From positions 1 through 43,860 of the forward strand of contig JAADGS010000035.1 in assembly GCA_013152275.1 (NCBI GenBank): a stretch of 43,860 nt of DNA. Direction: 5' to 3'. Positions 15,110-39,912 of this stretch are shown piece by piece. Under the pieces are notes generated by a model. The model ran no database searches, was not told where the DNA came from, and saw only the letters and a list, made by a program, of their open reading frames with translations. How positions within the stretch are numbered: position 1 is the stretch's first letter; each line of letters starts with the position of its first letter. The position numbers and the translations under genes are program-made. The stretch comes from Actinomycetota bacterium (GTDB lineage Bacteria; Actinomycetota; Acidimicrobiia; Spongiisociales; UBA4744).

Positions 15110-15135
15110 TTGGCCATTATGATAGCTGGGTCGGA

Positions 15136-15149
15136 TTGGAACGTTCCAA
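15136..15149. promoter_or_regulatory. LacI-type operator 1 (before regulator gene)
   Basis: A perfect 14-bp palindrome, TTGGAACGTTCCAA, with the central CG typical of LacI-family operators. It lies in the 132-bp gap between iolD and the leftward regulator gene. On the minus strand a possible -10 (TATCAT, + strand 15119-15124) lies just downstream. The operator half TTGGAA would fall at the -35 position with a 19-bp spacer. Binding would block this promoter. Confidence 0.8.
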
Positions 15150-15241
15150 GACTTGCCTGGTCCGCACACCGACCGACGGTGGGGGGTACTTCCAAGACCG
15201 GCACGATCTTGTCGGTGAATGGGCCGGTTCCGGATCACCGC

Positions 15242-17092: not shown

Positions 17093-17151
17093 CGTCACTC
17101 CTTGCTCATGAGCTGCGTACCGATCGTAGGGAGCCTTGCACTGCCGGCCTT

Positions 17152-24357: not shown

Positions 24358-25542
24358 ATGGGAGGCTTCGTCGCACCCGGGTTCGAGCCGGTATCCGAGG
24401 TGTTCGCTCGGCACCTCAGGGATGGCATCGAGAAAGGCGCAGCGGTGGCGCTGTACCGCCATGGCCGGCTGGTCGTCGACCTCTGGGGTGGTGAGGCCCG
24501 GCCGGGTGAGCGTTGGGCCGAGGACACCGTCGTGCCCGTCTTCTCCACATCCAAGGGAGCGGTGGCGCTGGTGGTCCAACTCCTGTGCGATCGCGGCGTC
24601 CTGGCGGTGGATCGGCCTGTGGCGGCCTACTGGCCGGAGTTCGGGGTCAACGGCAAGTCGACGATCACCCTCGAGCATGTTCTGACCCACACCGCCGGTC
24701 TGCCCTCGGTCCCCGACTACCAGGAGATCGTCACCCACGACTCGCCCGAGGGGTGGGATCGTCGTGAAGAGATCGTCTCCCGACTCGCCGCGGCAGCCCC
24801 CGAATGGGAGCCGGGATCGCGGCCCGGGTATCACGCCATCACCTTCGGGTGGCTCATCGGTGAAGTGGTGCGACGGGTGACGGGGCGTCCGATCGGAGAC
24901 GTGTTCGCCACCGAGATCGCCCGGCCGCTCGGAATGGACACCTGGCTCGGGATACCGGCGGAGATCACTGATCGGGTCGGCCATCTCATCGCGCCGCTTC
25001 CCCCCTCCGACCCCGAAGAGGCCGAGCTGCTCGCCCGGGTGCTGAGCCCGGAAACGGTTACCGCGCGCGCCCTCATGGTCGGCCCGAGCGGCGGGCTCGA
25101 TCACGTCGCCGAAGTGGCCAACAGCCCGCTCTTCCTGCAGGCGGAGATACCCGCCGGCAACATGGTCACCGACGCCCGGAGCGTTGCCCGCATGTACGCC
25201 ATGCTCGTGGCCGGCGGTTCCCTCGACGGGGTTCGGATCGTGTCCGAAGACTCGATCACCGAACACACCCGGGTTCGGGTGGAAGCCTACGATGAGGTGC
25301 TCATGAAGGACCGGCGCTACGCCCTGGGATACATGCTCCAGGCCGAGCCGATCGGGCGGTTCGGTCCCAACCCAAACGCTTTCGGTCATCCCGGAATGGG
25401 AGGGTCGGTCGGATTCGCCGACCCTCGAGCCGGGGTGAGCTTCGCATATGTGATGACCCAGATGGTTCCGGCGCTCGACACGGACGAACGGTCGCGGGCC
25501 CTGGTGGATGCCGTCTACGAAAGCCTGGAGGCCGAGAGGTGA
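24358..25542 (+). CDS. family VIII esterase / class C beta-lactamase-like hydrolase
   Basis: A 394-residue serine hydrolase. The catalytic SxxK is Ser63-Thr-Ser-Lys66, the second-motif Tyr is Tyr158 in RPGYHAITFGW, and a third motif GHPGMGGS replaces the KTG box. This set is typical of family VIII carboxylesterases (EstB type) rather than true beta-lactamases. There is no signal peptide, so it acts in the cytoplasm. It is the first gene of an operon with E1 subunits, a lipoyl domain, an SDR and a dikinase-like protein, suggesting it opens an ester or lactone of the imported substrate. The following gene starts 7 bases downstream. Confidence 0.85.
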   Translation: MGGFVAPGFEPVSEVFARHLRDGIEKGAAVALYRHGRLVVDLWGGEARPGERWAEDTVVPVFSTSKGAVALVVQLLCDRGVLAVDRPVAAYWPEFGVNGKSTITLEHVLTHTAGLPSVPDYQEIVTHDSPEGWDRREEIVSRLAAAAPEWEPGSRPGYHAITFGWLIGEVVRRVTGRPIGDVFATEIARPLGMDTWLGIPAEITDRVGHLIAPLPPSDPEEAELLARVLSPETVTARALMVGPSGGLDHVAEVANSPLFLQAEIPAGNMVTDARSVARMYAMLVAGGSLDGVRIVSEDSITEHTRVRVEAYDEVLMKDRRYALGYMLQAEPIGRFGPNPNAFGHPGMGGSVGFADPRAGVSFAYVMTQMVPALDTDERSRALVDAVYESLEAER

Positions 25543-25549
25543 ACCGACC

Positions 25550-26569
25550 ATGAAGATGCGGATGAACCAGGCCATCGCCCGGGCGTTGGCCGACGAGATG
25601 CGAGCCGACCCGTCCGTGGTCGTGTTCGGGGAAGACGTGGCCGAGGCCGGCGGCGTCTTCAAGACGAGCGTGGGACTGCTCGACGAGTTCGGTCCCATGC
25701 GGGTGCGAAACACCCCGATCTCGGAGCTGGCGATCGCCGGAGCGGCCGTCGGAGCCGCCGCCGCCGGGCTGCGGCCGGTGGCCGAGATCATGTTCGTCGA
25801 CTTCATCGGGCTGGCCCTGGACCCGATCGTCACCCAGGGCGCGTTCATGCACTACCTCTCCAACGGATCGGTCACTGCCCCGCTGGTCATCAGAACCACG
25901 GTGGGATCCGGTCGGGGCATGGGAGCGACCCACTCCCGCACGCTGGAGTCCTGGTTCCTGCAGGCGCCGGGACTGAAGGTGGCGGCGGTATCGAGCCCCC
26001 GGACCGCCTACGGGTTGTTACGAGCCGCCATCCGCGATGACGCTCCGGTGGTGATGCTCGAGCCAAAGATGCTCTACGGGAAACGAGAGGACTTCGAGCC
26101 CGGAGACGACGCCATCATCCCCCTCGGCCGCGGCGAGGTCGTTCGCTCCGGGAGCGACGCCACCGTGGTCACGCTCGGACCGACCGTCGATGTCGGGACA
26201 CGGGTGGCCGATGAATCGGCAGCCTCGCTGGAGGTGATCGACCTCCGGTCGATCCGGCCGTGGGACGAGGATCTCGTTTGTACATCGGTGCGCAAGACGG
26301 GCCGGCTCGTGATCGTGGAAGAAGGCCCCCACACCGGCGGCTGGAGCAACACCGTGGCCGCAACCGTCGGCGTCGAGCTGTTCGGAGAGATGAGGGCACC
26401 CATCTTCCGCATCACCAGCCCGGACGTTCCGGTTCCTTTCGCCCGGCGGCTCGAGACCGAGATGTACTTCCCGTCGCCGACCTGGGTGGGACCGGCCGTG
26501 GAGCGATTCCTCGACACCGACCAGGTGCCGCCCTTGTGGTGGCAAACCGAGCGAGGGGAGGCGAGCTGA
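25550..26569 (+). CDS. TPP-dependent dehydrogenase E1 beta subunit (second set)
   Basis: A 339-residue E1 beta chain. Landmarks are VVVFGEDVAEAGGVF, the central IMFVDFIGLALDP, VIVEEGPHTGGWSN and the C-terminal PVPFARRLETEMYFP. The ATG at 25550 is preferred over the frame's first start (25508), because it follows GAGAGG and sits just after the upstream stop. Gene order here is beta then alpha, opposite to the first set at 9334-11341. The two sets are clearly different paralogues. It shares one base with the alpha gene (TGATG). Substrate is unknown; the operon suggests acyloin or 2-oxo-acid cleavage. Confidence 0.88.
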   Translation: MKMRMNQAIARALADEMRADPSVVVFGEDVAEAGGVFKTSVGLLDEFGPMRVRNTPISELAIAGAAVGAAAAGLRPVAEIMFVDFIGLALDPIVTQGAFMHYLSNGSVTAPLVIRTTVGSGRGMGATHSRTLESWFLQAPGLKVAAVSSPRTAYGLLRAAIRDDAPVVMLEPKMLYGKREDFEPGDDAIIPLGRGEVVRSGSDATVVTLGPTVDVGTRVADESAASLEVIDLRSIRPWDEDLVCTSVRKTGRLVIVEEGPHTGGWSNTVAATVGVELFGEMRAPIFRITSPDVPVPFARRLETEMYFPSPTWVGPAVERFLDTDQVPPLWWQTERGEAS

Positions 26570-27606
26570 TGGCCATCATCGCCAAGACGGGGCCGAGCAG
26601 CACGTTCGATGGTTCATCGGCCCTCGAGCGGAGGGAAGCGGTGCGGTCCGACCGGGTCGCCCGATACGAGCGTATGGTCGAGATTCGCCTGGTGGAGCAA
26701 CGCATCAGAGACCTGCTGACGGAGGGACACGCCTGGGGCACCACCCACTCGTGTGACGGGCAGGAAGCGGTCGCCGTCGGCATCGCGGCCGCGGCCCGTC
26801 CGACGGACCTGGTGGTCGGCTCCCACCGCGCCCATGGGCTGGGAATGGCTCTCGGGATGTCACCCGAGGCGATCATCGCCGAGATAATGGGGAAGAGCGA
26901 CGGCGCAGTGGGCGGGACCGGTGGGTCCGCCCATCTCACCGACACGACGATCGGCCTGCTGTACACGGTGACCCTCATGGGCGCCGGCATCCCGGTGACC
27001 GTCGGGAACGCCATGGCCATTCAGGTGACGGGGAGCGACGCCGTGGCGATCTCGGTGTTCGGGGACGGTGCCGCCAACATCGGGGCGTTTCACGAAGGTC
27101 TCAACCTGGCGTCGGTGTGGAAAGTGCCGGCGGTGTTCGTGTGTGAGAACAACCATTACGGCGAGTACTCGCGGTATGACAAGACCACGCCGATCACCAT
27201 CATCGCCAAGCGGGCCGAGTCGTATGCGATGCCCTGGCTCCATGTGGATGGTCAGGACGTCGATGCGGTCGCCGCGGCCATCGAAGAGGCGATCGACCGG
27301 GCTCGCCGAGGCGGCGGTCCAACGCTCGTGGAGGCAAAGACGTACCGCTACCAGGGACACAACCGCACCGATCGGGCCGTCTACCGGCCCGAAGGCGAGT
27401 TGGAGGAATGGCTGGCACGTGATCCGATCACGATCCTGGGTGAGCGACTCGTCACCGAGGGTCTGCTGGATGCTGCCGGCATCGACGAGATCCGGGCCCG
27501 CGGCGAGCAGCGGGTCGAAGCCGCGGTGGAGTTCGCATTCGCCAGTCCCGAGCCGGACACCGCGGCGATGTTCCGCTACGTGTATCCGAAGGAGGTGGAC
27601 GCATGA
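26569..27606 (+). CDS. TPP-dependent dehydrogenase E1 alpha subunit (second set)
   Basis: A 345-residue E1 alpha chain with a 30-residue extra N-terminus. The TPP motif is GDGAANIG (165-172) through the paired Asn at 194-195 in VCENN. GSHRAHGLGMALG and GGTGGSAHLTD are the usual active-site loops, with Thr and Ala in place of the common Lys/Arg and Met. It overlaps the lipoyl gene by ATGA. Together with the preceding beta chain it should form an alpha2beta2 E1. The next gene offers a lipoyl carrier, but no E2 catalytic core or E3 is encoded nearby. Confidence 0.88.
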   Translation: MAIIAKTGPSSTFDGSSALERREAVRSDRVARYERMVEIRLVEQRIRDLLTEGHAWGTTHSCDGQEAVAVGIAAAARPTDLVVGSHRAHGLGMALGMSPEAIIAEIMGKSDGAVGGTGGSAHLTDTTIGLLYTVTLMGAGIPVTVGNAMAIQVTGSDAVAISVFGDGAANIGAFHEGLNLASVWKVPAVFVCENNHYGEYSRYDKTTPITIIAKRAESYAMPWLHVDGQDVDAVAAAIEEAIDRARRGGGPTLVEAKTYRYQGHNRTDRAVYRPEGELEEWLARDPITILGERLVTEGLLDAAGIDEIRARGEQRVEAAVEFAFASPEPDTAAMFRYVYPKEVDA

Positions 27607-27842
27607 TGGTGACCGTCAAGCTGCCCAAGCTCGGTGAACTCGCCGAGCGGGCGGTACTCCTCGAGTGGTGTTGCGCTCCCGGCGACGTCGTCGAGGTGGG
27701 TCAGGTGCTTGCCGAACTCGAGACCGACAAGGCAACGAGCGAGCTTCCCGCCCCCGTGGCGGGGAAAGTGGTCGAGCTGCTTGCCGCGATCGATGACGAG
27801 CTGACGGTGGGGGACCCGTTGGTCAGGATCGAGGCCGCATGA
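27603..27842 (+). CDS. free-standing lipoyl-domain protein
   Basis: A 79-residue protein that is just one biotinyl/lipoyl domain. The modified lysine is Lys43 in ELETDKATSELPAP, the standard lipoylation motif. In ordinary 2-oxo-acid dehydrogenases this domain is the N-terminus of E2; here the frame stops right after the domain (stop overlapping the SDR start by ATGA). It follows AAGGAGG and is coupled on both sides, so truncation by sequencing error is less likely than a true single-domain carrier. It would accept the acyl or hydroxyalkyl group from the E1 pair, and must pass it to a partner encoded elsewhere. Confidence 0.88.
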   Translation: MMVTVKLPKLGELAERAVLLEWCCAPGDVVEVGQVLAELETDKATSELPAPVAGKVVELLAAIDDELTVGDPLVRIEAA

Positions 27843-28642
27843 GTGATCGGATGACAGGCCGCATCGCCCTGATCACCGGAGGTGGGTCCGGCATCGGGGC
27901 CGCCACCGCCCGGCTCTTGGCCCGTGAGGGTGCCGACGTCGTGGTGGTCGAGCACCCCGATCGCTATTCCCAGGCTCTGCCCGTGGCCGAGGACATACGC
28001 CGGACGGGTCGGCGGGCGCTGATCGCCCTGGCCGACGTCGCCGACGAGAAGGCGGTCCGTGACGTGTTCGAGACCGCCGCCGGCGAACTCGGAGTTCCCG
28101 ATTGCGTGGTGGCTGCCGCGGGAGTGGCCGGCCACCCCGATCATGCCGGTCTCGGCTCCCTGGTGGACCTGGATACGGAACAGTGGCAGTTCGTTCTCGA
28201 CATCAACCTCAACGGCGTGTTCTTCACCATCCGTGAGGGTGCCCGGCGGATGATCGATGCCTCACGACCCGGTTCGATCGTGACGCTGGCCTCGGTGGCC
28301 GCAAAGATCCCGACTGCCGGGGTCTACTCGGTATCGAAGGCTGCGGTGTGGATGCTGACCAAGGCCCTGGCACTCGAGACCGCTCCTCACGGAGTGCGGG
28401 TGAATGCCGTCGGCCCCGGGTATATTCGGACGCCGATGCTGGACGATGCCGCCCGGCTCCGTGGTGGTGTCGCCGAAGACTGGTTCACCGAATGGAAGTC
28501 ACGAATCCCGATCGGGCGACTGGGAGAGCCCGAAGACGTTGCGCTCACCGTCCTCTTTCTGGCGAGCGACGACGCACGCTACCTGACGGGCTCCCTGCTG
28601 CATCCCGACGGTGGCATAACGGCGAGGTATGCCGGTGGCTAG
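27839..28642 (+). CDS. short-chain dehydrogenase/reductase (SDR)
   Basis: A 267-residue classical SDR that oxidises or reduces a hydroxyl/keto group with NAD(P). The cofactor motif is TGGGSGIG (residues 13-20), the structural Asn is in INLNGVFF, and the catalytic Tyr-Lys pair is in YSVSKAA, with the Ser in TLASVAAK. The C-terminal half has PGYIRTPM, as in 3-oxoacyl reductase-like enzymes. An acidic residue at the end of beta2 (VVVEHPD) favours NAD. Coupled to the lipoyl gene upstream; 16 bases separate it from the dikinase-like gene. Confidence 0.9.
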   Translation: MSDRMTGRIALITGGGSGIGAATARLLAREGADVVVVEHPDRYSQALPVAEDIRRTGRRALIALADVADEKAVRDVFETAAGELGVPDCVVAAAGVAGHPDHAGLGSLVDLDTEQWQFVLDINLNGVFFTIREGARRMIDASRPGSIVTLASVAAKIPTAGVYSVSKAAVWMLTKALALETAPHGVRVNAVGPGYIRTPMLDDAARLRGGVAEDWFTEWKSRIPIGRLGEPEDVALTVLFLASDDARYLTGSLLHPDGGITARYAGG

Positions 28643-28658: not shown

Positions 28659-29732
28659 ATGACCGATGCCTTGATCGTCTGGATCGCCGACCTCGGCGAG
28701 GATGGGGTGGGAGTCGCCGGGTCGAAGATCGCCAAGCTCGGGTCTCTGCGGACGCTGGGAGTGAAGGTTCCCAGGGGTTTCGCGCTCACCACCCATGCCT
28801 ACCTGCAGTTCATACGCGAAACGGGGCTTCGCAACGCCATCGAGAGATTCCTCGGCGAGGTTGACGATCCCGATGATATCGACCAGGTGGAAGCGGCCGC
28901 CGAGTCCATCCGCCGGGCGTTCCACGCGGCGCCGATCCCGCCCATCATCGGCGCCGCCGTCGAGGAGGCGTACGAGCTGTTGTCGGATGAATGCCGTGAT
29001 CTCAACGTTCCGGTGGCGGTGCGCAGCTCCGCAACCGGTGAGGACGGGGCAGAGGCCTCGTTCGCCGGGCAGTTCGAGACGGTTCTCGGAGTGAGCGGCG
29101 TCGGGGACGTTCTCGACGCGGTGAAGGTCTGCTGGGCCAGCTTGTACAACGGTCGAGCCGTCTCGTACCGGTTGCACCATGACCTGGACCACGCGTCGAG
29201 TCCGATGGCCGTGGGGATCATCGAGCTGATCCACGCCCGCTCGTCGGGAGTGGCGTTCTCGATCCACCCGGTCAGCGGCAAGCGCGACAGGATGGTCATC
29301 GAGGCGAACTGGGGATGGGGCGAAGCGGTCGTTCAAGGTTTGGTGACCCCGGATCATGTCGAGATCGGCAAGAGCGACCGGAGGGTGCTCACCTATCAGG
29401 AGCACACCAAGGTCGTGGTCTCCAGTTTCGACTATTCCCAGGGGAGGGTGGTGCAGGTGCCGATGCCGAGCCGCCTGGCGAACCGGCGCGTCCTGGACGA
29501 GGAGGAACTGGACACCATCGTCGACGCGGTCCTCGAGATCGAGGCGCACTACGGCTACCCGGTCGACGTCGAATGGGTGATCGGGCGCTACCGGCGGGTT
29601 GGTGAGCCGGTCGTGATCGTGCAGACCCGGCCGGAGACCGTCCACGCTCCGGCACCGTCCCGGGCTCGGCTGGGCTTCGATGTCGCCTCGATCGCTCGCC
29701 GTACCGTGTTGAGCCGTTCCGAGGATGGTTGA
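28659..29732 (+). CDS. PEP-synthase-type ATP-binding protein (split dikinase, ATP part)
   Basis: A 357-residue protein (about 39 kDa) that is only the ATP-grasp nucleotide-binding domain of the PEP synthase/pyruvate phosphate dikinase family. Landmarks in order are SKIAKLGSLRTLGVKVPRGF, VPVAVRSSATGEDGAEASFAG, ARSSGVAFSIHPVSG, EANWGWGEAVVQGLVTPD and DVEWVIGR with IVQTRPETV. All nucleotide-binding landmarks look intact. The phosphohistidine and acceptor domains are absent and appear in the separate gene at 31080. The ATG at 28659 is chosen because GAGGAGGGG precedes it. A stand-alone 40-kDa ATP subunit is known from phenylphosphate synthase of anaerobic phenol degraders. It overlaps the HAD phosphatase gene by 8 bases. 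Confidence 0.85.
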   Translation: MTDALIVWIADLGEDGVGVAGSKIAKLGSLRTLGVKVPRGFALTTHAYLQFIRETGLRNAIERFLGEVDDPDDIDQVEAAAESIRRAFHAAPIPPIIGAAVEEAYELLSDECRDLNVPVAVRSSATGEDGAEASFAGQFETVLGVSGVGDVLDAVKVCWASLYNGRAVSYRLHHDLDHASSPMAVGIIELIHARSSGVAFSIHPVSGKRDRMVIEANWGWGEAVVQGLVTPDHVEIGKSDRRVLTYQEHTKVVVSSFDYSQGRVVQVPMPSRLANRRVLDEEELDTIVDAVLEIEAHYGYPVDVEWVIGRYRRVGEPVVIVQTRPETVHAPAPSRARLGFDVASIARRTVLSRSEDG

Positions 29733-30543
29733 TCGCCCGATCGGCCGAGCCGACATCGCCGGGTATCGGGGCATCCTGTGTGATCTGGACGGTGTCGTGC
29801 TTCGGGGCGGCCGGCTCCTCGACGGAGCGGTGCGGTTCGCCGAGATCGTCGCCGACCTCGGGGTGCCGCTGGTATTCGTCACCAACGGTTCCTGGCCGAA
29901 GGAGCAGGTCGTCGGCGAACTGGCTGCGGCCGGGTGGTCGATCGAGCCCCACGACATCGTGAATTCGGGCGACAGCATCGCCTTGGAAGCCAAAGGCTCG
30001 AATCAACCGCTGGTGGCGGCGGGGGGACCGGGCCTGCCGGTGGCGCTGGCTGCGGCCGGGATCGTCGTCGCGGCGCCCGAGGAGTTCCCACTCACCGGCG
30101 TGTCCGGGCCGATCGTATACGCGGTCACCGGAGAGCAGTTGTTCTCCTACGAATCGTTGACCTGGATCTACCGGCTGGTCGACGCCGGCCTGGAGCTCCT
30201 CTTCCCATCGGATGAGCGGTACTTTCCGCTGGCAGACGGCCTCGGTCCGGGCGGGGGACCGTTTCTCGCCGCACTCCGGGAGATGGTGCCCGGGGCCCGG
30301 GTCCGGATCTGCGGCAAACCGCACCCGCCGATGGTGGCCGCGGTCGGGAACCGGCTCGGGGGCGAAGGCCCCTTCTTGATGATCGGGGACAACCCCGATG
30401 TCGATCTCGTGTTTGCGCACGCCAACGGCTGGGACTGTCTGCTGGTCGCCACCGGAGCGGGGACGCCGGAGCGCATCGCCGCGTCGACGGCCCGCTTCAC
30501 CGCGGCCGGGCTGGCCGCGGTGGCCGACACCCTCGAGGCGTGA
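29725..30543 (+). CDS. HAD-IIA family phosphatase (NagD/phosphoglycolate-phosphatase-like), copy 1
   Basis: A 272-residue HAD hydrolase of subclass IIA. Motif I is CDLDGVVLRGG, motif II FVTNGSW, motif III the Lys in GKPHPP, and motif IV GDNPDVDL; the large cap inserted between II and III defines the subclass. Such enzymes dephosphorylate small phosphate esters. Directly behind an ATP-dependent phosphotransferase subunit, it may recycle or proofread the phosphorylated intermediate. It ends exactly next to the stop of the oppositely oriented VOC gene, with no intergenic base. Confidence 0.85.
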   Translation: MVDRPIGRADIAGYRGILCDLDGVVLRGGRLLDGAVRFAEIVADLGVPLVFVTNGSWPKEQVVGELAAAGWSIEPHDIVNSGDSIALEAKGSNQPLVAAGGPGLPVALAAAGIVVAAPEEFPLTGVSGPIVYAVTGEQLFSYESLTWIYRLVDAGLELLFPSDERYFPLADGLGPGGGPFLAALREMVPGARVRICGKPHPPMVAAVGNRLGGEGPFLMIGDNPDVDLVFAHANGWDCLLVATGAGTPERIAASTARFTAAGLAAVADTLEA

Positions 30544-30978
30544 TCAGGCTCCGAGCATCTCCCGGAGGGCGTCGCGTCGCGCCGCGTCGACGAGCTCGAG
30601 GGTGACTCCCGACGGGAGCGTGACGTACACGAAGCTCGTGGGCCGGTCTTCGGGGCCCTCGTAACGCAGGGTGACGGTGGCCCCCCGATCGACCATGTGC
30701 CGGGTGGCGGCGGGGAGATCCTGCACCCAGTAGCCGAGATGCCAGGTCGTGGGCGCCAGCTTGCCTCCGGCGGGGGCGTCCACCAGCTCGATGTGGGGCG
30801 GGCCTTCGAGCGAGTAGACGAAGCGCAGTTCGGCGTCGAAGGGGCCGTCGGGGCTCATCATCGGTCGGTTCCTGGTTTGGATCGGCGTCCACCGTATGCC
30901 GAAGTCTTCGAGGTCGGCCATGGCCGCTTCCAGATCCTCGACTCCGACCCCGATGTGATACGGGCCTTCGAATTCCAT
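30544..30978 (-). CDS. VOC (glyoxalase/extradiol dioxygenase superfamily) protein
   Basis: A 144-residue vicinal-oxygen-chelate protein made of two beta-alpha-beta-beta-beta units. The four metal ligands appear present: His8 (YHIGVGVEDL), Glu64 (HIELVDAP), His80 (WHLGYWVQDL) and Glu128 (VTLELVDA). This set resembles glyoxalase I, methylmalonyl-CoA epimerase and small lactoylglutathione-lyase-like proteins. It is the only leftward gene of this cluster, divergent from the phosphohistidine protein gene and tail-to-tail with the HAD gene. The reaction is not predictable; an isomerase or lyase acting on a pathway intermediate is inferred. Confidence 0.82.
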   Translation of the reverse strand: MEFEGPYHIGVGVEDLEAAMADLEDFGIRWTPIQTRNRPMMSPDGPFDAELRFVYSLEGPPHIELVDAPAGGKLAPTTWHLGYWVQDLPAATRHMVDRGATVTLRYEGPEDRPTSFVYVTLPSGVTLELVDAARRDALREMLGA

Positions 30979-30998
30979 CGTGTTCTGCTTTCCTTCCG

Positions 30999-31050
30999 AC
31001 AGTGTTGCTATAGAAATGATATGATCCTACATGATTACTATGGCATGTAG
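30999..31050. promoter_or_regulatory. AT-rich divergent control region with inverted repeat
   Basis: Between the VOC gene and the rightward gene at 31080 the DNA is AT-rich. A perfect inverted repeat with arms CTACATG (31027-31033) and CATGTAG (31044-31050) and a 10-base spacer is a good candidate operator. The octamer ATCCTACA (31024-31031) recurs inverted at 32893-32900, before the next operon. Confidence 0.5.
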
Positions 31051-31079
31051 TCGATAGAGCCCTCGGAAGGAGGCTGCGG

Positions 31080-32798
31080 ATGCCGAAAGTCGTGCCCGTC
31101 GACGAGTTTGTTGATCCGGAGTGGTACCCGGGGTGGCGAGATCTCGAACCAGGTATCAAGGTCTTTGACGCGATCGGCCCGTTCCGAAAGGAGGATGAAG
31201 CAGGGTTCTGGATCCTCGACTTCCATCATCCCTACGGTTTCTGCCCGCTCTCCTTCGGGCTCCTCGAGGTGGGCGCCAAGCTCACCCAGATCGTTGCGGA
31301 GCGCATCCCGCTGCCACCGGGTCGTGGCTTGACGGTACGGATGGCCGGGGTTCACTCATATGCCAGCGAGGTGCCCGTCACCTCTCCGTGGCTCATCGGT
31401 GAGCGAGCCAAGCGAGCGATGAAGTCCATCCCCGCCATGATCGCCTCCTTTCCGGACGACTGGGCGGCGGCGGTGGAGGAGCTGAAAGCCGGGCTGGAGC
31501 GGTTCGAGTCGCTCGACGTCGACTCGCTCGACCCCGCCGAGCTGGCCGCCTACCTCACTGAGGCATACGACTTCCTCGAGCGGGCATGGGAGATCCACTT
31601 CGAGCTGATGTACCCGCTGCTGGCGAACTACGCCGGCTTCCTCGGGGTGTGCGCCGAGCTCGGGATCGACGCCAGCCAGGCTCCGGCGTTTCTCCAGGGC
31701 GAAGACACCAAGATCATGGCGGTCGACCGCGAGTTGTGGAACCTCGCCGACCGGGCCCGCGAGGAGGGGATCGATTCGATCTTCGCCGCGCACGAGGCGG
31801 AAGAGCTGAAGGCGGCTCTCGAGGCGGACCCGGCTGCCGCGACCTGGCTGGCGGAGTTCAACGAGTTCCTCCAGCGGGACGGGTGGCGGATCGAGGGCAT
31901 CGTCAACCCGATGCTTGCCCCGTGGATCGAGGATCCCACCCCGCCGCTCGGTACGATCAAGACCTTCCTCGGCGCCGAGGAACGGTTCGACTTCGACGCG
32001 GCGCGGGAAGCGACGATCGCCGAGCGTGAGCAGCTCGTGGCGGAGACGCGCGATCGGCTCACCGTCGAAGAGCGGGAGGTCTTCGACGGGGCCCTGGCCG
32101 CGGTTCGGGCGGTCAACTTCGTCTGGTGGAACGAAGAGCACAACTACTACATCGACCTGCGCGCCCACATTCCCTACCGGCGTCTGGCGATGGCGGTGGT
32201 CACCGCCGCCGGTGCTCCCGATCCCGACGATGCGTTCTATTTGTTCGTTCAGGAGCTGCACGAGCTGGCGGCGGGTCGACGCCGGTGGAGCGAGCTGGCG
32301 GATCTGGTTGCGGCCCGCCGCACGTTCTACGCCGATTCGATCGCCAAGCGGGCCGAGATGCCGAAGATACTCGGCACCGTGCCCGAGACCATCACCGATC
32401 CGGTGGTGGCGGAGATCTACGGCATGGGGGACGCCTTCTTCGCCGCCCTGGATGCGGACGGGAGCGACGTCTCGGAGCTGGTCGGGATACCCGCCGCCCC
32501 CGGCAAGGTGCGGGGAAGGGTGCGGGTGCTCCACAGCGCCCAGGAACTCCATCGGATCGAGGAGGGAGAGGTTCTCGTGTGTGAGGCCACGTCCCCCAAC
32601 TGGACTCCGGCCTTCGGAAAGATCGCCGGCTGTGTCTGTGACACCGGTGGAAGCCTGACCCACGCGGCCATCGTCAGTCGCGAGTACCGGATCCCGGCAG
32701 TCACCGGATGTGCGGTGGCGACCCAGGCCCTCGGTGATGGTGATCTCGTCGAAGTCGACGGCACCGCCGGAGTGGTGCGGATCATCGAACGCGCCTGA
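31080..32798 (+). CDS. PEP-utilising-enzyme-type phosphohistidine protein (split dikinase, His part)
   Basis: A 572-residue protein (about 64 kDa). The C-terminal 100 residues are the mobile phosphohistidine domain, with the catalytic His528 in DTGGSLTHAAIVSREY and the following RIPAVTG. The first 400 residues are largely helical and include WWNEEHNYYIDLRAH, seen in PEP-synthase-like phosphotransferases that use acceptors other than pyruvate. There is no ATP-grasp domain and no PEP/pyruvate barrel. The ATP-binding partner is most likely the 28659 gene. The size pair (64 + 39 kDa) resembles phenylphosphate synthase subunits 1 and 2. It starts at an ATG behind GGAAGGAGG and forms its own transcription unit in an AT-rich setting. 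The acceptor alcohol or phenol is unknown. Confidence 0.82.
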   Translation: MPKVVPVDEFVDPEWYPGWRDLEPGIKVFDAIGPFRKEDEAGFWILDFHHPYGFCPLSFGLLEVGAKLTQIVAERIPLPPGRGLTVRMAGVHSYASEVPVTSPWLIGERAKRAMKSIPAMIASFPDDWAAAVEELKAGLERFESLDVDSLDPAELAAYLTEAYDFLERAWEIHFELMYPLLANYAGFLGVCAELGIDASQAPAFLQGEDTKIMAVDRELWNLADRAREEGIDSIFAAHEAEELKAALEADPAAATWLAEFNEFLQRDGWRIEGIVNPMLAPWIEDPTPPLGTIKTFLGAEERFDFDAAREATIAEREQLVAETRDRLTVEEREVFDGALAAVRAVNFVWWNEEHNYYIDLRAHIPYRRLAMAVVTAAGAPDPDDAFYLFVQELHELAAGRRRWSELADLVAARRTFYADSIAKRAEMPKILGTVPETITDPVVAEIYGMGDAFFAALDADGSDVSELVGIPAAPGKVRGRVRVLHSAQELHRIEEGEVLVCEATSPNWTPAFGKIAGCVCDTGGSLTHAAIVSREYRIPAVTGCAVATQALGDGDLVEVDGTAGVVRIIERA

Positions 32799-32900: not shown

Positions 32901-32936
32901 AGATACATGTTGTACCCGTCTTGGAGGAGGCGAGCC

Positions 32937-34220
32937 ATGAAACGACCCGCGAAATGGGCTCTGCTGCTGGTATTCGTGCTGGTGGCGGCGGCCTGCGGAG
33001 GAGCCGCCGAGAGCACCGGATCCACCGATACCACTGCCGCAACCGACACCACCGCCGCAACCGACACCACCGCCGCAACTACCGAATCGACTGCCGAGAC
33101 GGCCGCTGCGGCGCCGGTCGAGCTGCCGACCGTCAAGATCGGCTCCGTCAACAGCCTGACCGGGCCGTTTCCGTTCCCGGAGGCCTCGGCGGCGGCTGCG
33201 GCGGTATTCGATCGGTACAACGATGATCCGGCACGCGCCTTCGACATCGAGTACATCATCGAGGACGACGCAGCCGACCCGGCAATCGCCACCCAGGCGG
33301 CTCGCAAGATCGTGTCCCAAGACGGCGTGGTACTCGTGGCGGGGGGTGCCAGCCTGCTCGATTGCATCGTGGACGGCGCCTACTACGCCGAGAACGGTGT
33401 CTACTCGATCCCGGGAACCGGCGTCGACGAAGGGTGTTTTGCATCCCGGAACATCGCCCCGGTCAACACCGGTCCCTGGCTGGGCCTGGTGGTATCGCTC
33501 TATTTCACGTCCGAGATCCTCGGTCATGACAAGATCTGTTACGTCCAGTTCGACACCGGCTCGGGCGCCGAAGCCCGAGCGGCCGCGGTGGCCCGTTGGG
33601 AGGCGATCACCGGCAAGACGCTGGCGTCTCTCGACCTCTACCCGCCCGGCGACGACCTGACTCCGTATGTGGTCAAGGCCATGGACACCGGCTGTACGGC
33701 TGTGTTCGAAGGCGGCCTCGACTTCACCGCCATCGCCTGGGACCAGGCCGTGGCCACCCAGGGCGCCACGTTCGATTCGGTGCACTTCACGTCGGCGTAC
33801 ACGTCGGGGGTGGCCGAAGCCATCCCGAATCCGGCCACACCGACGTACGCCAACTCGGAGTTCGAGCCGTTCACCGAGGTCGACTCTCCGGCACTGGCCG
33901 ATTGGCGCGGACTCATGGAATCCGCGGACGTCCCGCTCACCTCGTTCGCCGAGGGCGGGTACCTGGCAGGCTTGATCGCGATCGACGTCATCGAGAGCGC
34001 CGGCATCACCGCCGACGACGACACGGCGACGCAACGCTCCAAGATCGAGCAGGCGTTGCTGACGATGAAGCCGTTCGAGCATCCGATGCTCGGCGTTCCG
34101 TTCGTGTTCGGCGATGCCGAGAAGCACAACCCGAACTACGCGTCGAAGTTCGTTCAGCTCGTCGATGGCGAGTGGGTGACGGTTACCGACGAGTTCGTCG
34201 TACTACCGGATGAATCCTGA
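32937..34220 (+). CDS. Liv-type ABC transporter substrate-binding lipoprotein
   Basis: A 427-residue periplasmic-binding protein of the branched-chain amino acid/amide/aromatic acid class (type I fold). The signal peptide ends in the lipobox VAAAC with Cys20, followed by a Thr/Ala-rich linker containing three TDTTAA repeats. The mature domain begins VKIGSVNSLTGPFPFPE, the standard Liv start, and contains IEDDAADPAIATQAARKIV. The ATG at 32937 is chosen for its GGAGGAGG site. A strong hairpin follows the gene, and the permease, fusion and ATPase genes come next. Such binding proteins also carry aromatic acids, which fits the HpaR-like regulator, but the ligand is not known. Confidence 0.9.
   Translation: MKRPAKWALLLVFVLVAAACGGAAESTGSTDTTAATDTTAATDTTAATTESTAETAAAAPVELPTVKIGSVNSLTGPFPFPEASAAAAAVFDRYNDDPARAFDIEYIIEDDAADPAIATQAARKIVSQDGVVLVAGGASLLDCIVDGAYYAENGVYSIPGTGVDEGCFASRNIAPVNTGPWLGLVVSLYFTSEILGHDKICYVQFDTGSGAEARAAAVARWEAITGKTLASLDLYPPGDDLTPYVVKAMDTGCTAVFEGGLDFTAIAWDQAVATQGATFDSVHFTSAYTSGVAEAIPNPATPTYANSEFEPFTEVDSPALADWRGLMESADVPLTSFAEGGYLAGLIAIDVIESAGITADDDTATQRSKIEQALLTMKPFEHPMLGVPFVFGDAEKHNPNYASKFVQLVDGEWVTVTDEFVVLPDES
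33024..33077 (+). repeat. three 18-bp tandem repeats in the lipoprotein linker
   Basis: Three consecutive 18-bp units (33024, 33042, 33060) encode TDTTAA; the second and third are identical and the first differs at two bases. They lengthen the disordered tether between lipid anchor and binding domain. Copy number may vary by slippage. Confidence 0.85.
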
Positions 34221-34288: not shown

Positions 34289-35146
34289 ATGTTTGATGCT
34301 GCCATATCCGGCATTCCGTCAGGGGGAGCCTATGCCCTCATCGGGGTGACCGTCGTCCTGCTGTATCGGATGACGGGCACGCTCAACTTTGCGGCCGCCG
34401 TCACCGGTGCCTTCGGGGCGTTCACCGTCGTGGCGATCAACGGCGCCGGCGTCGGTCTCGGGGTGGCCGTCCTCGTCGGGATGATCGTTGGTGGCATCGT
34501 TTCCGGGCTGCTGGGCGTCGTGGCAGCCTTTCTCTTCTCCGACCACGACGAGATCTCGCGTTCGGTCGTCACGATCGCCATGGCGATCGGGCTGTTCGCC
34601 GTGGCGTTTCGTATCTTCGGAGACCAACCGCGGGCCTTTCCCCCGCTGTTCGGAGGATCGAACATCACTGTCGGAGGTGTCGTCCTGCCGACCTCGAACC
34701 TCGTGTCGGCGGCTCTTGCCCTCGGGCTTGCGGTTGGGATCAACGCCGTGTTGACTCGCACCCGTCTCGGCCTCAAGTACCAGGCACTGAGCGTTCGGGC
34801 GGCGACGGCCGAGGGTCTCGGTGTGCCGGTGCGGGGCCTGCTCGTCGGGGCCTGGGCCTTCTCCGGGTTCGTCGCGGCGTTCGCCCTCACCCTGGCGGCC
34901 CCGACCCGGCAGGCGGACATGACCTCACTCGGTCTCCTCGTGATTCCGGCGTTCGCCGCTGCCCTGATAGGTGGCTTCCGGTCGTTCACCTGGATCGCCG
35001 TCGGTGGGATCACCCTGGGTGTGTTCGAGGCGCTGGTGATACGCGTGAGGCCGCTCGCGACGTACCGCAGCGCGCTTCCGTTCGTCGTGATCGTCGCGCT
35101 GTTGCTGTGGACCCAGCGCCGGGCGATCTGGGATGAGGCTCGATGA
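34289..35146 (+). CDS. livH: Liv-type ABC permease (LivH-like)
   Basis: A 285-residue, strongly hydrophobic permease with about eight membrane segments. The N-terminal ISGIPSGGAYALIGVTVVLL and the LNFAAAVTGAFGA region are typical of LivH. A cytoplasmic loop GLKYQALSVRAATAEGLGV corresponds to the coupling helix. The stop overlaps the start of the permease-ATPase fusion gene (ATGA). It forms the channel with the N-terminal half of that fusion. Confidence 0.9.
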   Translation: MFDAAISGIPSGGAYALIGVTVVLLYRMTGTLNFAAAVTGAFGAFTVVAINGAGVGLGVAVLVGMIVGGIVSGLLGVVAAFLFSDHDEISRSVVTIAMAIGLFAVAFRIFGDQPRAFPPLFGGSNITVGGVVLPTSNLVSAALALGLAVGINAVLTRTRLGLKYQALSVRAATAEGLGVPVRGLLVGAWAFSGFVAAFALTLAAPTRQADMTSLGLLVIPAFAAALIGGFRSFTWIAVGGITLGVFEALVIRVRPLATYRSALPFVVIVALLLWTQRRAIWDEAR

Positions 35147-36894
35147 TCGGATCACTGTCTGCCCGCGTGCCGATCCGGCCGACGCATCCCATCGGCCTGG
35201 CCCTGGGAGTGGCCGCCGTCGGGTTCGTGATCTGGCTTCCGGAGTTCTGGACGTACCTGTTCATCGGGGCGGTGGTCAGCGCGCTCGTCGCGGCGAGTGT
35301 CGGCGTGGTCTACGGCAGCGCCGGGCTGGTATCACTCTGCCAGCTCACGTTTGCGGCAATTGGAGCCTGGACGATCGGGTGGCTGAACGTTCATACCGGG
35401 ATCCCGTTTCTGGCCTTGTTGTTGATCGGCGGAATCGCCGCGGTGCCGGTCGGGTTGGTGATCGGCCTGCTGTCCCTTCGTCTCCGGGGGATACACCTGG
35501 CCGTCGTCACCATGAGTTTCGCCGTGGCGAGCACGGTGGTGCTCCGCCAGATCGAGTTCCCCGGATCGCTGAGCAACCAACCCGTCCGACGCCCCGAGCT
35601 GTTCGCCAGTGAGAACGGGTACTTCCTGCTGGCGGTGGCCGTTCTGGTCGTGATCTTTGTCGCCCTGAACGCGATGCGGAAGAGGCCGGTCGGTCTCGCC
35701 TGGCGTGCCGTGCGCCACAGCGAGCGTGCGGCGGCGGCGTTGGGTTTGAACGTTCCCCTCTCCAAGCTGATCGCCTTCGCGGTGGGGGCATTCATCGCCG
35801 GAGTTGCCGGAGGTCTCCTTGTCGGTCAGAACGGCACCGTCAGCTTGCGGAGCTTCGAGGTGCTCGACTCGCTCGTCATCTTCACGGTCGCAGTCATGGT
35901 CGGGGCCGACTATCTCGAGGGTGCGGTCATGGCGGGGTTGTTCGCGACAGTCGTTCCCGAGCTCTTCCGGAACTGGAGCATTCCGCTGGACGTGGTTCCG
36001 ATCCTGTTCGCCATCGGCGCCATCGATATTCTTCGCCGGGGAGGGGACGGGATCAGCGGGCAGCTTCGCCGGCGCATGCGAACCTGGCGAGGTGCCGCAA
36101 CACGGGAAGAGGCGGTGGCCGGGGAGCCGGCACCAGCCGGTGTCATCGTGCCGGTGCAGGACGGTCCGGTCGGCGCGGCACGGCCGCCGGAGCTGACGAT
36201 CGAGGGCCTGAGCGTGAGGTTCGGGGCGGTGCGAGCACTCGACGGCGTGAGCCTCACCGTGCCGGCCGAATCTGTCGTCGGCCTGATTGGGCCAAACGGG
36301 GCGGGAAAATCTACGCTGGTCGATGTAGTGACCGGGTTCGTTCGCGGCGAACACGGTGTGGTCATGCTCGGGGGACGCTCACTGAATGGCCTCCCTGCAC
36401 ACTCCCGCGCGAGGAGCGGTTTGCGACGCACGTTTCAACAGGGAAGGGCGATTCCGGGGCTGACGGTCGAGCAGTACCTTCGCCTCGGCTCGAACGGGAG
36501 CGCCACCGACGCCGACCTCGATCGGGTCATCGACGCGCTCGGCTGCCCCGGCCGATCGGTGCGTATCGAGGAGATCGACATGCCGACTCGCCGCCTGGTG
36601 GAGGCCGCGGCCTGTTTTGTCGCAAGTCCGAAACTGGTCCTCCTGGACGAACCGGCGGCGGGTCTCGGTGAGGCGGAATCGGCCCGGCTCGCCAGGAGCA
36701 TTGCCTCGCTCCCGGAGCTGTTCGGCTGTTCCGTTCTCCTGATCGAGCACGATGTGGAAGTCGTCCACGCCGCCTGTGACTATGTCACCGTGCTGGATTT
36801 CGGGAAGGTGATCGCCCAGGGCCCACCCGCGGAAGTCTTCTCATCTCCCGAGGTGATGAGCGCGTTCCTCGGAAAAGTCGGGGTGGCGCCATGA
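35143..36894 (+). CDS. fused Liv-type permease and ATPase (LivM-LivG)
   Basis: A 583-residue fusion. Residues 1-310 are a LivM-type permease (GLVSLCQLTFAAIGAW, RLRGIHLAVVTMSFA, and the coupling loop AVRHSERAAAALGLN). Residues about 350-583 are a LivG-type ATPase with Walker A GPNGAGKST and Walker B LVLLDEPAAGL, ending in the typical FSSPEVMSAFLG. The linker is rich in Ala, Pro and Gly. The ABC signature, normally LSxGQ/E, is degenerate (DMPTRRLVEAA), so ATP hydrolysis may rely on the partner LivF site. Both ends overlap neighbours by ATGA. Permease-ATPase fusions of this type occur in actinobacterial aromatic/amide importers. Confidence 0.9.
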   Translation: MIGSLSARVPIRPTHPIGLALGVAAVGFVIWLPEFWTYLFIGAVVSALVAASVGVVYGSAGLVSLCQLTFAAIGAWTIGWLNVHTGIPFLALLLIGGIAAVPVGLVIGLLSLRLRGIHLAVVTMSFAVASTVVLRQIEFPGSLSNQPVRRPELFASENGYFLLAVAVLVVIFVALNAMRKRPVGLAWRAVRHSERAAAALGLNVPLSKLIAFAVGAFIAGVAGGLLVGQNGTVSLRSFEVLDSLVIFTVAVMVGADYLEGAVMAGLFATVVPELFRNWSIPLDVVPILFAIGAIDILRRGGDGISGQLRRRMRTWRGAATREEAVAGEPAPAGVIVPVQDGPVGAARPPELTIEGLSVRFGAVRALDGVSLTVPAESVVGLIGPNGAGKSTLVDVVTGFVRGEHGVVMLGGRSLNGLPAHSRARSGLRRTFQQGRAIPGLTVEQYLRLGSNGSATDADLDRVIDALGCPGRSVRIEEIDMPTRRLVEAAACFVASPKLVLLDEPAAGLGEAESARLARSIASLPELFGCSVLLIEHDVEVVHAACDYVTVLDFGKVIAQGPPAEVFSSPEVMSAFLGKVGVAP

Positions 36895-37661
36895 GCGCTC
36901 TGCTCCGGGTCGAGGATCTTCACGTGGACCGGGGAGGATTCCCGGTCGTCCGGGGGGTGGGGCTCGAAGTGTGCGAAGGATCGATCGCCGTTCTCCTCGG
37001 GAACAACGGTGCCGGCAAGTCGACCACCCTCGACGGGATCGCCGGGGCAATTCCGGTGGCCGGGGGCCGGGTGACCCTGTCCGGGCTCGAGATCACCCAG
37101 AGCCGGCCCTACCAGCGAGCCCGGTTGGGACTCGCCTATGTCGAGCAGGGGAAAGCGGTCTTTCCCGCCCTCACCGCCGAAGAGAACGTCATGGTGGCGG
37201 CTCCCCGAGGGCGGGCGCTCGAAGCCTTGGCGATGTTTCCGGAGCTTCACGATCGACGGAGGACTCCGGCCGGTTTGTTGAGCGGCGGCGAGCAGCAGAT
37301 GCTGGTTGTCGCCCGAGCTCTCTCGCTGCAACCCCGGGTCCTGCTCCTCGACGAGATCTCCTTCGGGCTTGCCCCGGTTATCGTGCTCCGGCTGATGGCG
37401 GCGGTGCGCCGCCTGGCCGACGACGGCATGGCGGTGCTCCTGGTCGAGCAGTTCGCCTCGCTGGCCCTCGAGGTGGGCGATCGGGCGTACGTCCTCAACA
37501 AGGGCACGATCGAGTACGAGGGTCCCTGCCGAACTCTCATCGAACATCCGGAGATACTCCACACCGCCTACCTGGGAATCTCCCCGGTGGCGCTCTCCGC
37601 CGATGCCGGTTTCGACGCCGACTCGGGTCGGGTCGGGTCCCGGTCGACTGGGGGTGCGTGA
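36891..37661 (+). CDS. livF: Liv-type ABC transporter ATPase (LivF-like)
   Basis: A 256-residue ATPase with Walker A GNNGAGKST, a canonical signature LLSGGEQQMLVVARAL and Walker B LLLDEISFGLAP. The last 20 residues are a non-conserved tail. It pairs with the ATPase half of the LivM-LivG fusion. The Walker B segment has Ile-Ser where most have Pro-Ser (DEISFGL), a mild change. The GTG of the aldehyde dehydrogenase gene follows the TGA with no gap. Confidence 0.9.
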   Translation: MSALLRVEDLHVDRGGFPVVRGVGLEVCEGSIAVLLGNNGAGKSTTLDGIAGAIPVAGGRVTLSGLEITQSRPYQRARLGLAYVEQGKAVFPALTAEENVMVAAPRGRALEALAMFPELHDRRRTPAGLLSGGEQQMLVVARALSLQPRVLLLDEISFGLAPVIVLRLMAAVRRLADDGMAVLLVEQFASLALEVGDRAYVLNKGTIEYEGPCRTLIEHPEILHTAYLGISPVALSADAGFDADSGRVGSRSTGGA

Positions 37662-39107
37662 GTGGAGCGTCGAGGTGTCTTCATCGCCGGGGACTGGGCG
37701 GGATCGGGGCCGCCGGTCGAGATTCGTGATCCCGCGGATGCTCGTGTTGTCGTCGCGACGGTCATGACCGGATCGCCCGATGATCTCCGAAATGCGGTCG
37801 CAGCCGCCCAGGCGGCGGTCTCCTGGCAGGTGACGTCCCCTCAGGAGCGCGCCGGCTACCTGTCGACGGCCGCCCGGCTGCTGCGCGAACGGGCGGAAAG
37901 GATCGCGGCCGAACTGGTCTCGGAGGAGGGCAAGACGCTCCGCGAAGCCGGCGGAGAGGTCATCCGGTCCGCCGCCACCCTCGAATACCACGCCGGTCAA
38001 GCCCTCCGGGCCCAAGGTGAGGTGCTCGCTCCGATCCGGCCGGGGGCGTTGACCGTGACGCGGCGCCGACCGGTGGGACCGGTGGCGGTGATCTCACCGT
38101 TCAACTTCCCGATGCTGGTTCCCGCATGGAAGATCGGGCCGGCGCTGGCCCACGGCAACACCGTCGTCTGGAAGCCTTCTTCACTGACACCCCTGACCGC
38201 CATCAACTTGACAGAAGCGTTCCACGACGCCGGTCTTCCCCCCGGTGTACTCAACATGGTGGTGGCCTCCGGCAAGGCCGCGGCAGGGAGCCTCATCGGT
38301 GCTCCCGGTATCAAGGCGTTGACATTCACCGGTTCCACCACGGCCGGACGCACCATCCAAGCGCGCCTCGGCGGGCTCGACACCAGAGTGCAGCTCGAGA
38401 TGGGGGGGAACAACGCGGCGATCGTGTTCGACGGCGTCGACGTTGCCCAGGTGGCGGCCGAGATCATCAAGGGAGCGCTGGCGGGATCGGGTCAGCGCTG
38501 CACCGGAATCCGGCGTGTCATCATCGCCGGTCGGGTCGCGGGAATCGAGGACGCGTTGGTGGCAGAAGCCGGCAGGTGGCGCGTCGGACCGGGGATGGAC
38601 CCGAACTCCGACATGGGCCCGCTGGTGAGCGCCGCGGCCCGGCGTGATGTCCTCGCCGGGCTGGAGCGGCTGGTGGGGGCAGGTGCCACGATCGTCACGG
38701 CGGACCGTACGGTCGAGGACGAGGTTTGGGAGCATGGCCATTTCGTGGCGCCGGCGATTGTCTCCAATCTGGATCCGGACGACGATCTGGCGTGCGAGGA
38801 GATCTTCGGTCCCGTCTTGAGCCTGTATCGGGCGGATACTCGGGACGAAGCCTTCCGACTGGCCAACGCCACCCCGTTCGGGCTCTCCCATGCCGTGTTC
38901 TCTCCCGAGATCGACGATGCCCTCGCCGCGGCGGATTCCCTCGAGGCGGGCATGGTCCATGTGAATGCGTCAGGCGGGGTCGCCCCCCACGTTCCCTTCG
39001 TCGGGTGGGGTGATTCCGGGTTCGGTCCGGCCGAGCAAGGCGAGACCGCCGTCGAATTCTTTACGCGAACTCAGGTCATCAATGTTCACGGTGCCCGGTT
39101 TGTCTGA
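37662..39107 (+). CDS. NAD(P)-dependent aldehyde dehydrogenase
   Basis: A 481-residue ALDH-superfamily enzyme. Catalytic residues are Asn148 (ISPFNFP), the general base Glu246 (LEMGGNN) and the nucleophile Cys280 (SGQRCTG), all present, so it is a hydrolytic ALDH that makes free acids, unlike the CoA-acylating MmsA at 12591. Similar proteins oxidise succinate semialdehyde, 2-oxoglutarate semialdehyde or aromatic aldehydes. The GTG start directly follows the livF stop. It overlaps the second HAD phosphatase gene by 26 bases. In this cluster it probably oxidises an aldehyde released from the imported substrate. Confidence 0.9.
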   Translation: MERRGVFIAGDWAGSGPPVEIRDPADARVVVATVMTGSPDDLRNAVAAAQAAVSWQVTSPQERAGYLSTAARLLRERAERIAAELVSEEGKTLREAGGEVIRSAATLEYHAGQALRAQGEVLAPIRPGALTVTRRRPVGPVAVISPFNFPMLVPAWKIGPALAHGNTVVWKPSSLTPLTAINLTEAFHDAGLPPGVLNMVVASGKAAAGSLIGAPGIKALTFTGSTTAGRTIQARLGGLDTRVQLEMGGNNAAIVFDGVDVAQVAAEIIKGALAGSGQRCTGIRRVIIAGRVAGIEDALVAEAGRWRVGPGMDPNSDMGPLVSAAARRDVLAGLERLVGAGATIVTADRTVEDEVWEHGHFVAPAIVSNLDPDDDLACEEIFGPVLSLYRADTRDEAFRLANATPFGLSHAVFSPEIDDALAAADSLEAGMVHVNASGGVAPHVPFVGWGDSGFGPAEQGETAVEFFTRTQVINVHGARFV

Positions 39108-39912
39108 GTCCGCCGTGGCACTTCTCGGAGCCGGCCGTTACCGGACCGTCCTGTTCGATCTCGACGGCACCGTATACATCGACGGCAAGGCGCTTCCGGG
39201 CGTCCCCGCCTTTGTGGAGGAGGCGCGCCGAGCGGGGCATCGAGTCGGCTTTCTCACCAACATGTCCTATCGATCCCGGGAGTGGTGCTTGGACGTCCTC
39301 CACCAGGTCCAGGTCGAAGCGAAACCGGATGAACTGATAACCACCGTGGACGTGATGGTGGAAGTTCTCCGCTCCAGAGGGATGAAGAAGGTGGCCGCCA
39401 TCGGCTCAGACGAGTTCCGGTCGCAACTCTCCCGGGCGGGGGTGCAGGTCGGAGACCTTCTCGCGGGGCCGATCCACGATCCGGATGCACTCGTTGTCGG
39501 AATGTGGCCGGGAGCCTCCCGGGAGTCGATCGCCGCTGCGGTCGGCCTGATCAGCAACGCGGTTCCGGTCTTCGCGACGTCGGGAGTCGGATCGTTGCCC
39601 ACCTCGAACGGGTTGGTGTCGGGAGCGGCCGGCATCGTCCGTCGACTCCGGGAGGGCTCCGGCATGCCGGTGACGATCACCGGGAAACCGGGTCGACTCT
39701 TCAGCGATGTCGTCAAGCGTCGTCTCGACCTCGTCGATCCGGTGCTGGTGGTCGGAGACACCATCGAGGTCGACATCGTCATGGCAGACAGCAACGGTTG
39801 GGACTCGCTGCTGGTGCTCACCGGTGCCTCCAGCGACCACCAGGCCCAGGCGATGACGGGGGGAGGAGGGCCCACGTATGTCGCACGCACGCTCGACGAC
39901 GTCGAGATGTGA
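39082..39912 (+). CDS. HAD-IIA family phosphatase (NagD-like), copy 2
   Basis: A 276-residue HAD-IIA hydrolase, paralogous to the protein at 29725. Motif I is LFDLDGTVYIDG, motif II FLTNMSY, motif III GKPGRLFSDV, and motif IV VGDTIEVDI. The start is uncertain: ATG 39082 overlaps the dehydrogenase end, while GTG 39115 is a possible alternative, and no strong ribosome site is seen. It ends the transporter operon. Two phosphatases of one subclass in the same cluster, alongside a split dikinase, suggest a phosphorylated intermediate. Confidence 0.82.
   Translation: MFTVPGLSESAVALLGAGRYRTVLFDLDGTVYIDGKALPGVPAFVEEARRAGHRVGFLTNMSYRSREWCLDVLHQVQVEAKPDELITTVDVMVEVLRSRGMKKVAAIGSDEFRSQLSRAGVQVGDLLAGPIHDPDALVVGMWPGASRESIAAAVGLISNAVPVFATSGVGSLPTSNGLVSGAAGIVRRLREGSGMPVTITGKPGRLFSDVVKRRLDLVDPVLVVGDTIEVDIVMADSNGWDSLLVLTGASSDHQAQAMTGGGGPTYVARTLDDVEM

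Follow-up and report, generated by a model that had tools for sequence, protein, structure and literature searches.

We analysed a 43,860-nucleotide stretch of DNA from an Actinomycetota bacterium (Acidimicrobiia; Spongiisociales; contig JAADGS010000035.1 of assembly GCA_013152275.1), hereafter the window, in which two forward-strand genes encoding protein A (positions 28659–29732) and protein B (31080–32798) probably specify a two-component small-molecule dikinase. Protein A is the ATP-grasp (PPDK_N) subunit, similar to HpeI, CreI and PpsB, and protein B is the substrate-binding and swivel subunit, similar to HpeH, CreH and PpsA. Sequence, fold and conservation together establish the two-part architecture, the intact catalytic residues and the conserved gene cluster around the pair. 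By analogy with the published two-component dikinases acting on phenols, namely HpeHI (acetovanillone), CreHI (4-cresol) and PpsAB (phenol) (PMC12167813), the pair very probably moves phosphate from ATP to the hydroxyl of a small compound.

The domain search matched a single domain in protein A, PF01326 (PPDK_N), spanning residues 19–331 (E 2.3e-95), and the ATP-site motifs AVRSS, WGWGE, DVEW and VQTRPET were all intact. The sequence matched the ATP-grasp domains of phosphoenolpyruvate (PEP) synthase and rifampin phosphotransferase (RPH) as well as 9goj, a 387-residue PDB chain that we took to be HpeI. A separate ATP-grasp subunit with the PPDK_N fold and an intact ATP site is as described for the two-component small-molecule dikinases (PMC12167813). 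In protein B, the only domain matched was the PF00391 mobile domain at residues 493–564, and the predicted model places about 400 mostly helical residues ahead of it. A preliminary description made from the DNA letters alone had likewise seen a stand-alone ATP-grasp protein and a partner carrying only the phosphohistidine domain, with His528, after a helical region.

His528 was invariant among 29 relatives and lies in the context CDTGGSLTH528. The published catalytic motif of these enzymes is T/SXXGGXXXH, with the histidine after the GG loop (PMC12167813); Cys520 occupies the T/S position in protein B, and we counted the GG loop followed by the histidine as the same feature. By sequence, RPH matched protein B over residues 259–569, while PEP synthase matched only over the swivel. 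The structure model, built from the 29 relatives, had a mean predicted local distance difference test (pLDDT) score of 89.9 and gave RPH as its best fold match, with 488 residues, almost the whole of protein B, aligned at 4.3 Å (Z 31.6), while swivel-only fold matches reached a Z of 18.4 at most. In this predicted model the residues ahead of the swivel fit the RPH substrate domain, giving a separate subunit with an RPH-like substrate domain and a C-terminal swivel as in the published class, for which an RPH-like fold relation of HpeH has likewise been reported (PMC12167813). Two further histidines of protein B, H173 and H354, are shared with PpsA, CreH and HpeH-type proteins but absent from the RPH compared, and are candidate substrate-activating residues.

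The window pair is placed by its sequences in a phylogenetically separate sister subfamily of the two-component dikinases. In a tree of protein B (83 rows, built by a quick method, so that the deep branching is to be read with care although the split itself is strongly supported), PpsA, the CreH-type and HpeH-type proteins and several others formed one clade (34 rows; Shimodaira–Hasegawa-like approximate likelihood ratio test, SH-aLRT, 100), and the window protein fell outside this phenolic kinase clade, in a second one (clade II; 40 rows, support 95) across a long branch. Identities of the window protein were 26–29% to the first clade and 42–55% within clade II. A tree of protein A united the clade II partners, including that of the window (30 rows, 100/99), and many of its subgroups were the same as those of protein B while the deep branches differed, suggesting that the two trees largely match. 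The profile NF006153 (cut-off 578 bits) agreed with the split, scoring 1052 bits for the HpeH-type protein of locus L138 and 231 bits for the window protein. A search of openly licensed papers for this gene set returned nothing past the HpeHI work and no characterised member of the sister subfamily. The preliminary description had read the pair as a split PEP-synthase-like phosphotransferase, which holds, and had named phenylphosphate synthase, without HpeHI or CreHI, as the closest arrangement. That enzyme is not the closest: PpsA, CreH and HpeH-type proteins were about equally distant from protein B (26–28%) and grouped together to its exclusion.

We compared the window with reference clusters taken from annotated plasmids and whole genomes, whose Cre-type and Hpe-type labels denote gene content and order rather than published identifiers of those loci. 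Like the window, HpeHI of Rhodococcus rhodochrous GD02, the acetovanillone/4-hydroxyacetophenone kinase, has an ATP-grasp subunit separate from its substrate and swivel subunit, the catalytic histidine, an RPH-like fold and a HAD-IIA phosphatase in its operon, namely HpeD, which is NagD-like (PMC9618137), while the window has two HAD-IIA genes. HpeH-type proteins are 26–27% identical to protein B and belong to the other clade. The Hpe pathway has the biotin-dependent carboxylase HpeCBA, and in the Hpe-type references (L148 of Rhizobium leguminosarum, L138, L142 and L143) the kinase genes are followed by a carboxylase set and a HAD-IIA gene, the HAD gene of L143 being unresolved in the gene calls. 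No HpeCBA-type carboxylase was found among the window cluster genes, while it was present in L138, L142 and L148; the window instead has E1 and lipoyl genes, an SDR oxidoreductase, an aldehyde dehydrogenase (ALDH) and a Liv importer. CreHI, the 4-cresol kinase of Corynebacterium glutamicum, and the Rhodococcus Cre-type clusters (L095 and L096) share with the window the split dikinase and a nearby SDR and ALDH. They differ in having an HD-domain protein rather than HAD-IIA and a P450 with ferredoxin and reductase, which is present in L095/L096 and was not found among the window cluster genes, and CreH is 27% identical to protein B and in the other clade. PpsAB in Azoarcus sp. KH32C (L094) is also a split dikinase, one subunit being A-like and the other B-like (28% identity), located beside a CBS protein and phenylphosphate carboxylase genes. 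As the preliminary description had it, neither a CBS-type third subunit nor a UbiD-like or phenylphosphate carboxylase was found among the identified window cluster genes. RPH combines the same three domains, ATP-grasp, substrate and swivel, in a single polypeptide, whereas the window pair consists of two separate genes conserved as such.

The survey of genomes that the preliminary description had proposed showed that A and B are kept together in many genomes and that the surrounding gene set recurs. A genome-wide scan yielded 43 loci. Among nine window-type loci, SDR and A orthologues were found in all nine, HAD-IIA in eight, Liv genes in seven, E1-beta in six, and E1-alpha, the lipoyl protein and ALDH in five each, some loci being cut by contig ends. 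These loci were grouped by gene content and place in the tree and are not all independent, two from Nonomuraea being near-identical, and the count therefore describes rather than tests the association. With the same thresholds, orthologues of the Liv, E1, lipoyl and ALDH genes were found in 0 of 30 other clade II loci and in 0 of 26 control loci around other dikinase-family homologues, where a weak HAD match was the sole trace of the window set; all that can be read from the control is that the set is missing from other dikinase loci. In two distant genomes of the same order (G034 and G053), A was ∼59–60% and B 52–53% identical to the window proteins, while the gene order differed from that of the window, running LivKHMG, E1-beta, E1-alpha, lipoyl protein, LivF, SDR, B, A, HAD-IIA and ALDH. 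A, B and their neighbours are linked beyond chance. All that is left of the B orthologue in another locus (L045; G079:C9:4622-5043) is a frame-broken piece of its C-terminal part, a decayed copy. The window genome itself encodes a second, distant B-like protein (L049; G000:C98; 24% identity) beside LivM/G/F-like genes, and an A homologue next to it was not found.

The neighbouring genes of the window, all on the forward strand, are as follows. Upstream of A lie an E1-beta gene of the 2-oxoacid/acetoin dehydrogenase complex type (25508–26569; PF02779/PF02780), which is 56–63% identical to cluster relatives and at most 42% to paralogues of the same genome, an E1-alpha gene (26545–27606; PF00676; 53–64% in cluster relatives), a lone lipoyl-domain protein of 79 aa with the lipoylation motif ETDKA (27603–27842; PF00364, E 4.7e-20; 47–58% in five of the nine window-type loci) and a butanediol/acetoin dehydrogenase-like SDR (27839–28642), which is near B in all nine. 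A first HAD-IIA phosphatase gene (29725–30543; PF13344/PF13242) follows, and adjoins A in L043 and L044 at 37–39% identity. Downstream of B, genes matched in seven of the nine loci encode a LivK-type substrate-binding protein (32907–34220; PF13458; 43–70%), a LivH-type permease (34289–35146; 45–53%), a LivM-LivG fusion of permease and ATPase (35143–36894; 45–54%) and a LivF-type ATPase (36891–37661; 50–56%). These are followed by an ALDH gene (37662–39107; 43–45% in five of the nine), the nearest NCBIfam model of which is alpha-ketoglutaric semialdehyde dehydrogenase, below its cut-off, and by a second HAD-IIA phosphatase (38965–39912) that exceeds the TIGR01460 cut-off (104 versus 100 bits) and is matched in eight of the nine. 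A beta-lactamase-fold, LipL/EstB-like esterase (24358–25542; PF00144; 48–49% in L055, L056 and L058) is a probable accessory member, and a MarR-type protein (40053–40523; PF01047), with a weak 31% match in the same relative place in L043, is a possible pathway regulator. Domain searches confirmed the two HAD-IIA proteins, the SDR, the E1 pair, the VOC protein and the Liv binding protein of the preliminary description, which had missed the lipoyl protein, ALDH, MarR regulator and esterase. The VOC protein, which it had counted as part of the route, was rejected as a pathway member, having an orthologue in none of the nine window-type loci or any other compared locus. Elsewhere in the window (9334–17098), a second E1-alpha/beta pair is followed by an inositol monophosphatase, a LacI regulator and a three-domain thiamine pyrophosphate enzyme on the reverse strand, possibly a polyol/inositol catabolic region.

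From these genes we infer a phosphotransfer, a substrate and an order of steps. The Liv system would import the hydroxyl compound; as in HpeHI and PpsAB, ATP would be bound by A and a phosphoryl group would pass to His528 on the swivel domain of B, which would then turn to the helical domain, where the hydroxyl of the bound compound would be phosphorylated, leaving AMP and inorganic phosphate. Judging by gene content, the SDR would oxidise the side chain of the phosphate ester, E1 with the lone lipoyl carrier would carry out a thiamine-dependent C-C cleavage of the side chain, ALDH would oxidise the resulting aldehyde and a HAD-IIA enzyme would take the phosphate off. HAD-IIA is the phosphatase partner in Hpe-type loci (PMC9618137), which counts in favour of the dikinase reading. 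The preliminary description had proposed an undescribed route of activation as a phosphate ester; the activation and the HAD-IIA partners fit, but phosphorylation first, then a change in the side chain, then HAD-IIA dephosphorylation has already been described for HpeHI and HpeD (PMC9618137, PMC12167813). We tentatively propose, at slightly less than even chances, that what is undescribed is the combination of phosphate tagging by a split dikinase with thiamine/lipoyl C-C cleavage of the phosphorylated side chain, ALDH and HAD-IIA dephosphorylation.

The likeliest substrate would be a 4-hydroxyphenyl compound whose side chain is oxidised and has at least two carbons, the route ending near 4-hydroxyphenylacetate. 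The two closest clusters (L043 and L044, the same loci as L053 and L054) both have an HpaB-like gene and L043 also has an HpaD-like (LigB) gene, pointing to a 4-hydroxyphenyl substrate. In Mycobacterium and Nocardia, clade II loci have a phenol/toluene-type diiron monooxygenase (SDIMO) nearby, and L064 of this set has a catechol 2,3-dioxygenase above its cut-off; the Nocardia and some further assignments combine shared families with reading by eye. In Burkholderiaceae (L067, L069, L070, L071 and L086), clade II loci contain ALDH and a class III aminotransferase, some with an amino-acid permease, and could represent a route for a phosphorylated phenolic amine such as tyramine.

Several observations weigh against a dikinase pathway for a phenolic substrate. 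A and B of the window are 1.3 kb apart with the reversed VOC gene between them, while they are adjacent in most relatives. The HpaB-like and HpaD-like matches of L043 and L044 are below the equivalog cut-offs. Searches of the window genome, an assembly of 100 contigs with a completeness estimate of 100, gave no match for HpaB, LigB, intradiol dioxygenase, HgmA (homogentisate dioxygenase), PaaA/C or catechol 2,3-dioxygenase, the last of these queries having no positive control. This genome therefore lacks the route's aromatic end, and the organism either only shortens the side chain, releasing or otherwise using the aromatic product, or uses a non-aromatic substrate. The ‘aromatic-type’ cluster of the preliminary description is thus borne out by the ring-attack genes of relatives but not by the window genome. 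Finally, the window cluster has no E2 catalytic domain, unlike L055, L056 and L058, which additionally carry it as a stand-alone protein, so that its E1–lipoyl pair must either use an E2 encoded at some other place in the genome or work otherwise. The E2 genes on contigs C87, C10 and C28 were rejected as a hidden cluster E2, being unlike the split E2 of L055-L058; by gene names read by eye, that of C87 runs off the contig and so lacks its start, and lies beside lipB/lipA-like genes, that of C10 belongs to an acetoin-type cluster and that of C28 lies beside its own E1.

The same dikinase could instead act on a non-aromatic alcohol (a terpenoid, tertiary alcohol or polyol-derived acyloin), with E1, SDR, ALDH and HAD forming an aliphatic route. 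The lack of every ring-attack family searched in the window genome and the butanediol/acetoin dehydrogenase-like SDR would agree with this, as would the zinc-type sugar/threonine dehydrogenase-like enzyme that L056 and L058 add; HpaB in the two closest clusters, the HpaD-like dioxygenase in at least one of them and the SDIMO and catechol 2,3-dioxygenase beside mycobacterial relatives do not, and phenols are the substrates of the two-component members that have been characterised (PMC12167813). We hold this alternative to be unlikely though not negligible. An aromatic substrate is likely for the kinase and unproven for the window organism, and we put the chances of the full pathway acting on a phenolic compound at about even.

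Since RPH is the closest fold, the pair might inactivate a toxic hydroxylated compound or antibiotic, its catabolic neighbours being incidental, but the conserved neighbours, among them an importer, dehydrogenases and phosphatases, are the reverse of what a resistance cassette would carry and the shared histidines H173 and H354 are absent from the RPH compared, making such a function improbable. A reading of the pair as what decay has left of a PEP synthase or PPDK gene, broken in two and with its barrel lost or lying elsewhere, is very improbable even though A is 38% identical to the PEP synthase ATP-grasp domain and no less so than to HpeI-type proteins: the domain search found no PEP/pyruvate-binding TIM barrel in either protein, the part of B ahead of the swivel corresponds to the RPH substrate domain, both genes are intact and separate in distant phyla, and the window genome has other genes, on C27 and C50, that carry both ATP-grasp and mobile domains. 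The absence of a barrel, the intact ATP motifs of A and the RPH-like fold of B thus indicate an intact split dikinase, and the identity as PEP synthase fragments, which the preliminary description had named as an outcome that would overturn it, was rejected. The other such outcome that it had named, a pair not conserved in related genomes, did not occur either. The 25-hydroxysteroid kinase, considered as a further PEP-synthase-like relative, was set aside as irrelevant, its published description being of an ADP-forming enzyme that follows a sequential mechanism.

Two further observations were made at other dikinase loci. In L131 (G342:C1, 1123-6908) and L135 (G126:C534, 12085-16793), the neighbours of a clade I substrate/swivel subunit include a LigB-type dioxygenase, EutN/CcmL and BMC-domain shell proteins, in what seems to be an ARO-like microcompartment locus; L131 also has an A-like subunit, and its BMC and EutN/CcmL proteins were Pfam-checked. 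A term search of the paper describing ARO found no kinase mentioned (PMC10470539). MetE-like proteins (PF01717) were repeatedly found near two-component dikinase genes, in L060, L072, L084, related Actinomycetospora and Trebonia loci and, by eye, L141 (4877-5965), which hints at methyl transfer or a C-C lyase reaction with phosphorylated substrates.

Enzymes of this kind have been known since PpsAB and were formally recognised in 2025, when why cells pay for the phosphorylation of phenols was described as still unclear (PMC12167813); what is new here is the sister subfamily and an E1/lipoyl context in place of a carboxylase or P450. Clade II pairs are distributed over Acidimicrobiia, Streptosporangiaceae, Micromonosporaceae, Mycobacteriaceae, Nocardiaceae, Burkholderiaceae and others, and with carriers in culture, Nonomuraea basaltis for example, the pair can be tested. 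The window pair thereby opens up another half of the two-component family, set apart in phylogeny from the known one and with what would be new downstream chemistry. If the proposed route is true, phosphorylation would be linked not with carboxylation or P450 oxidation but with thiamine/lipoyl cleavage.

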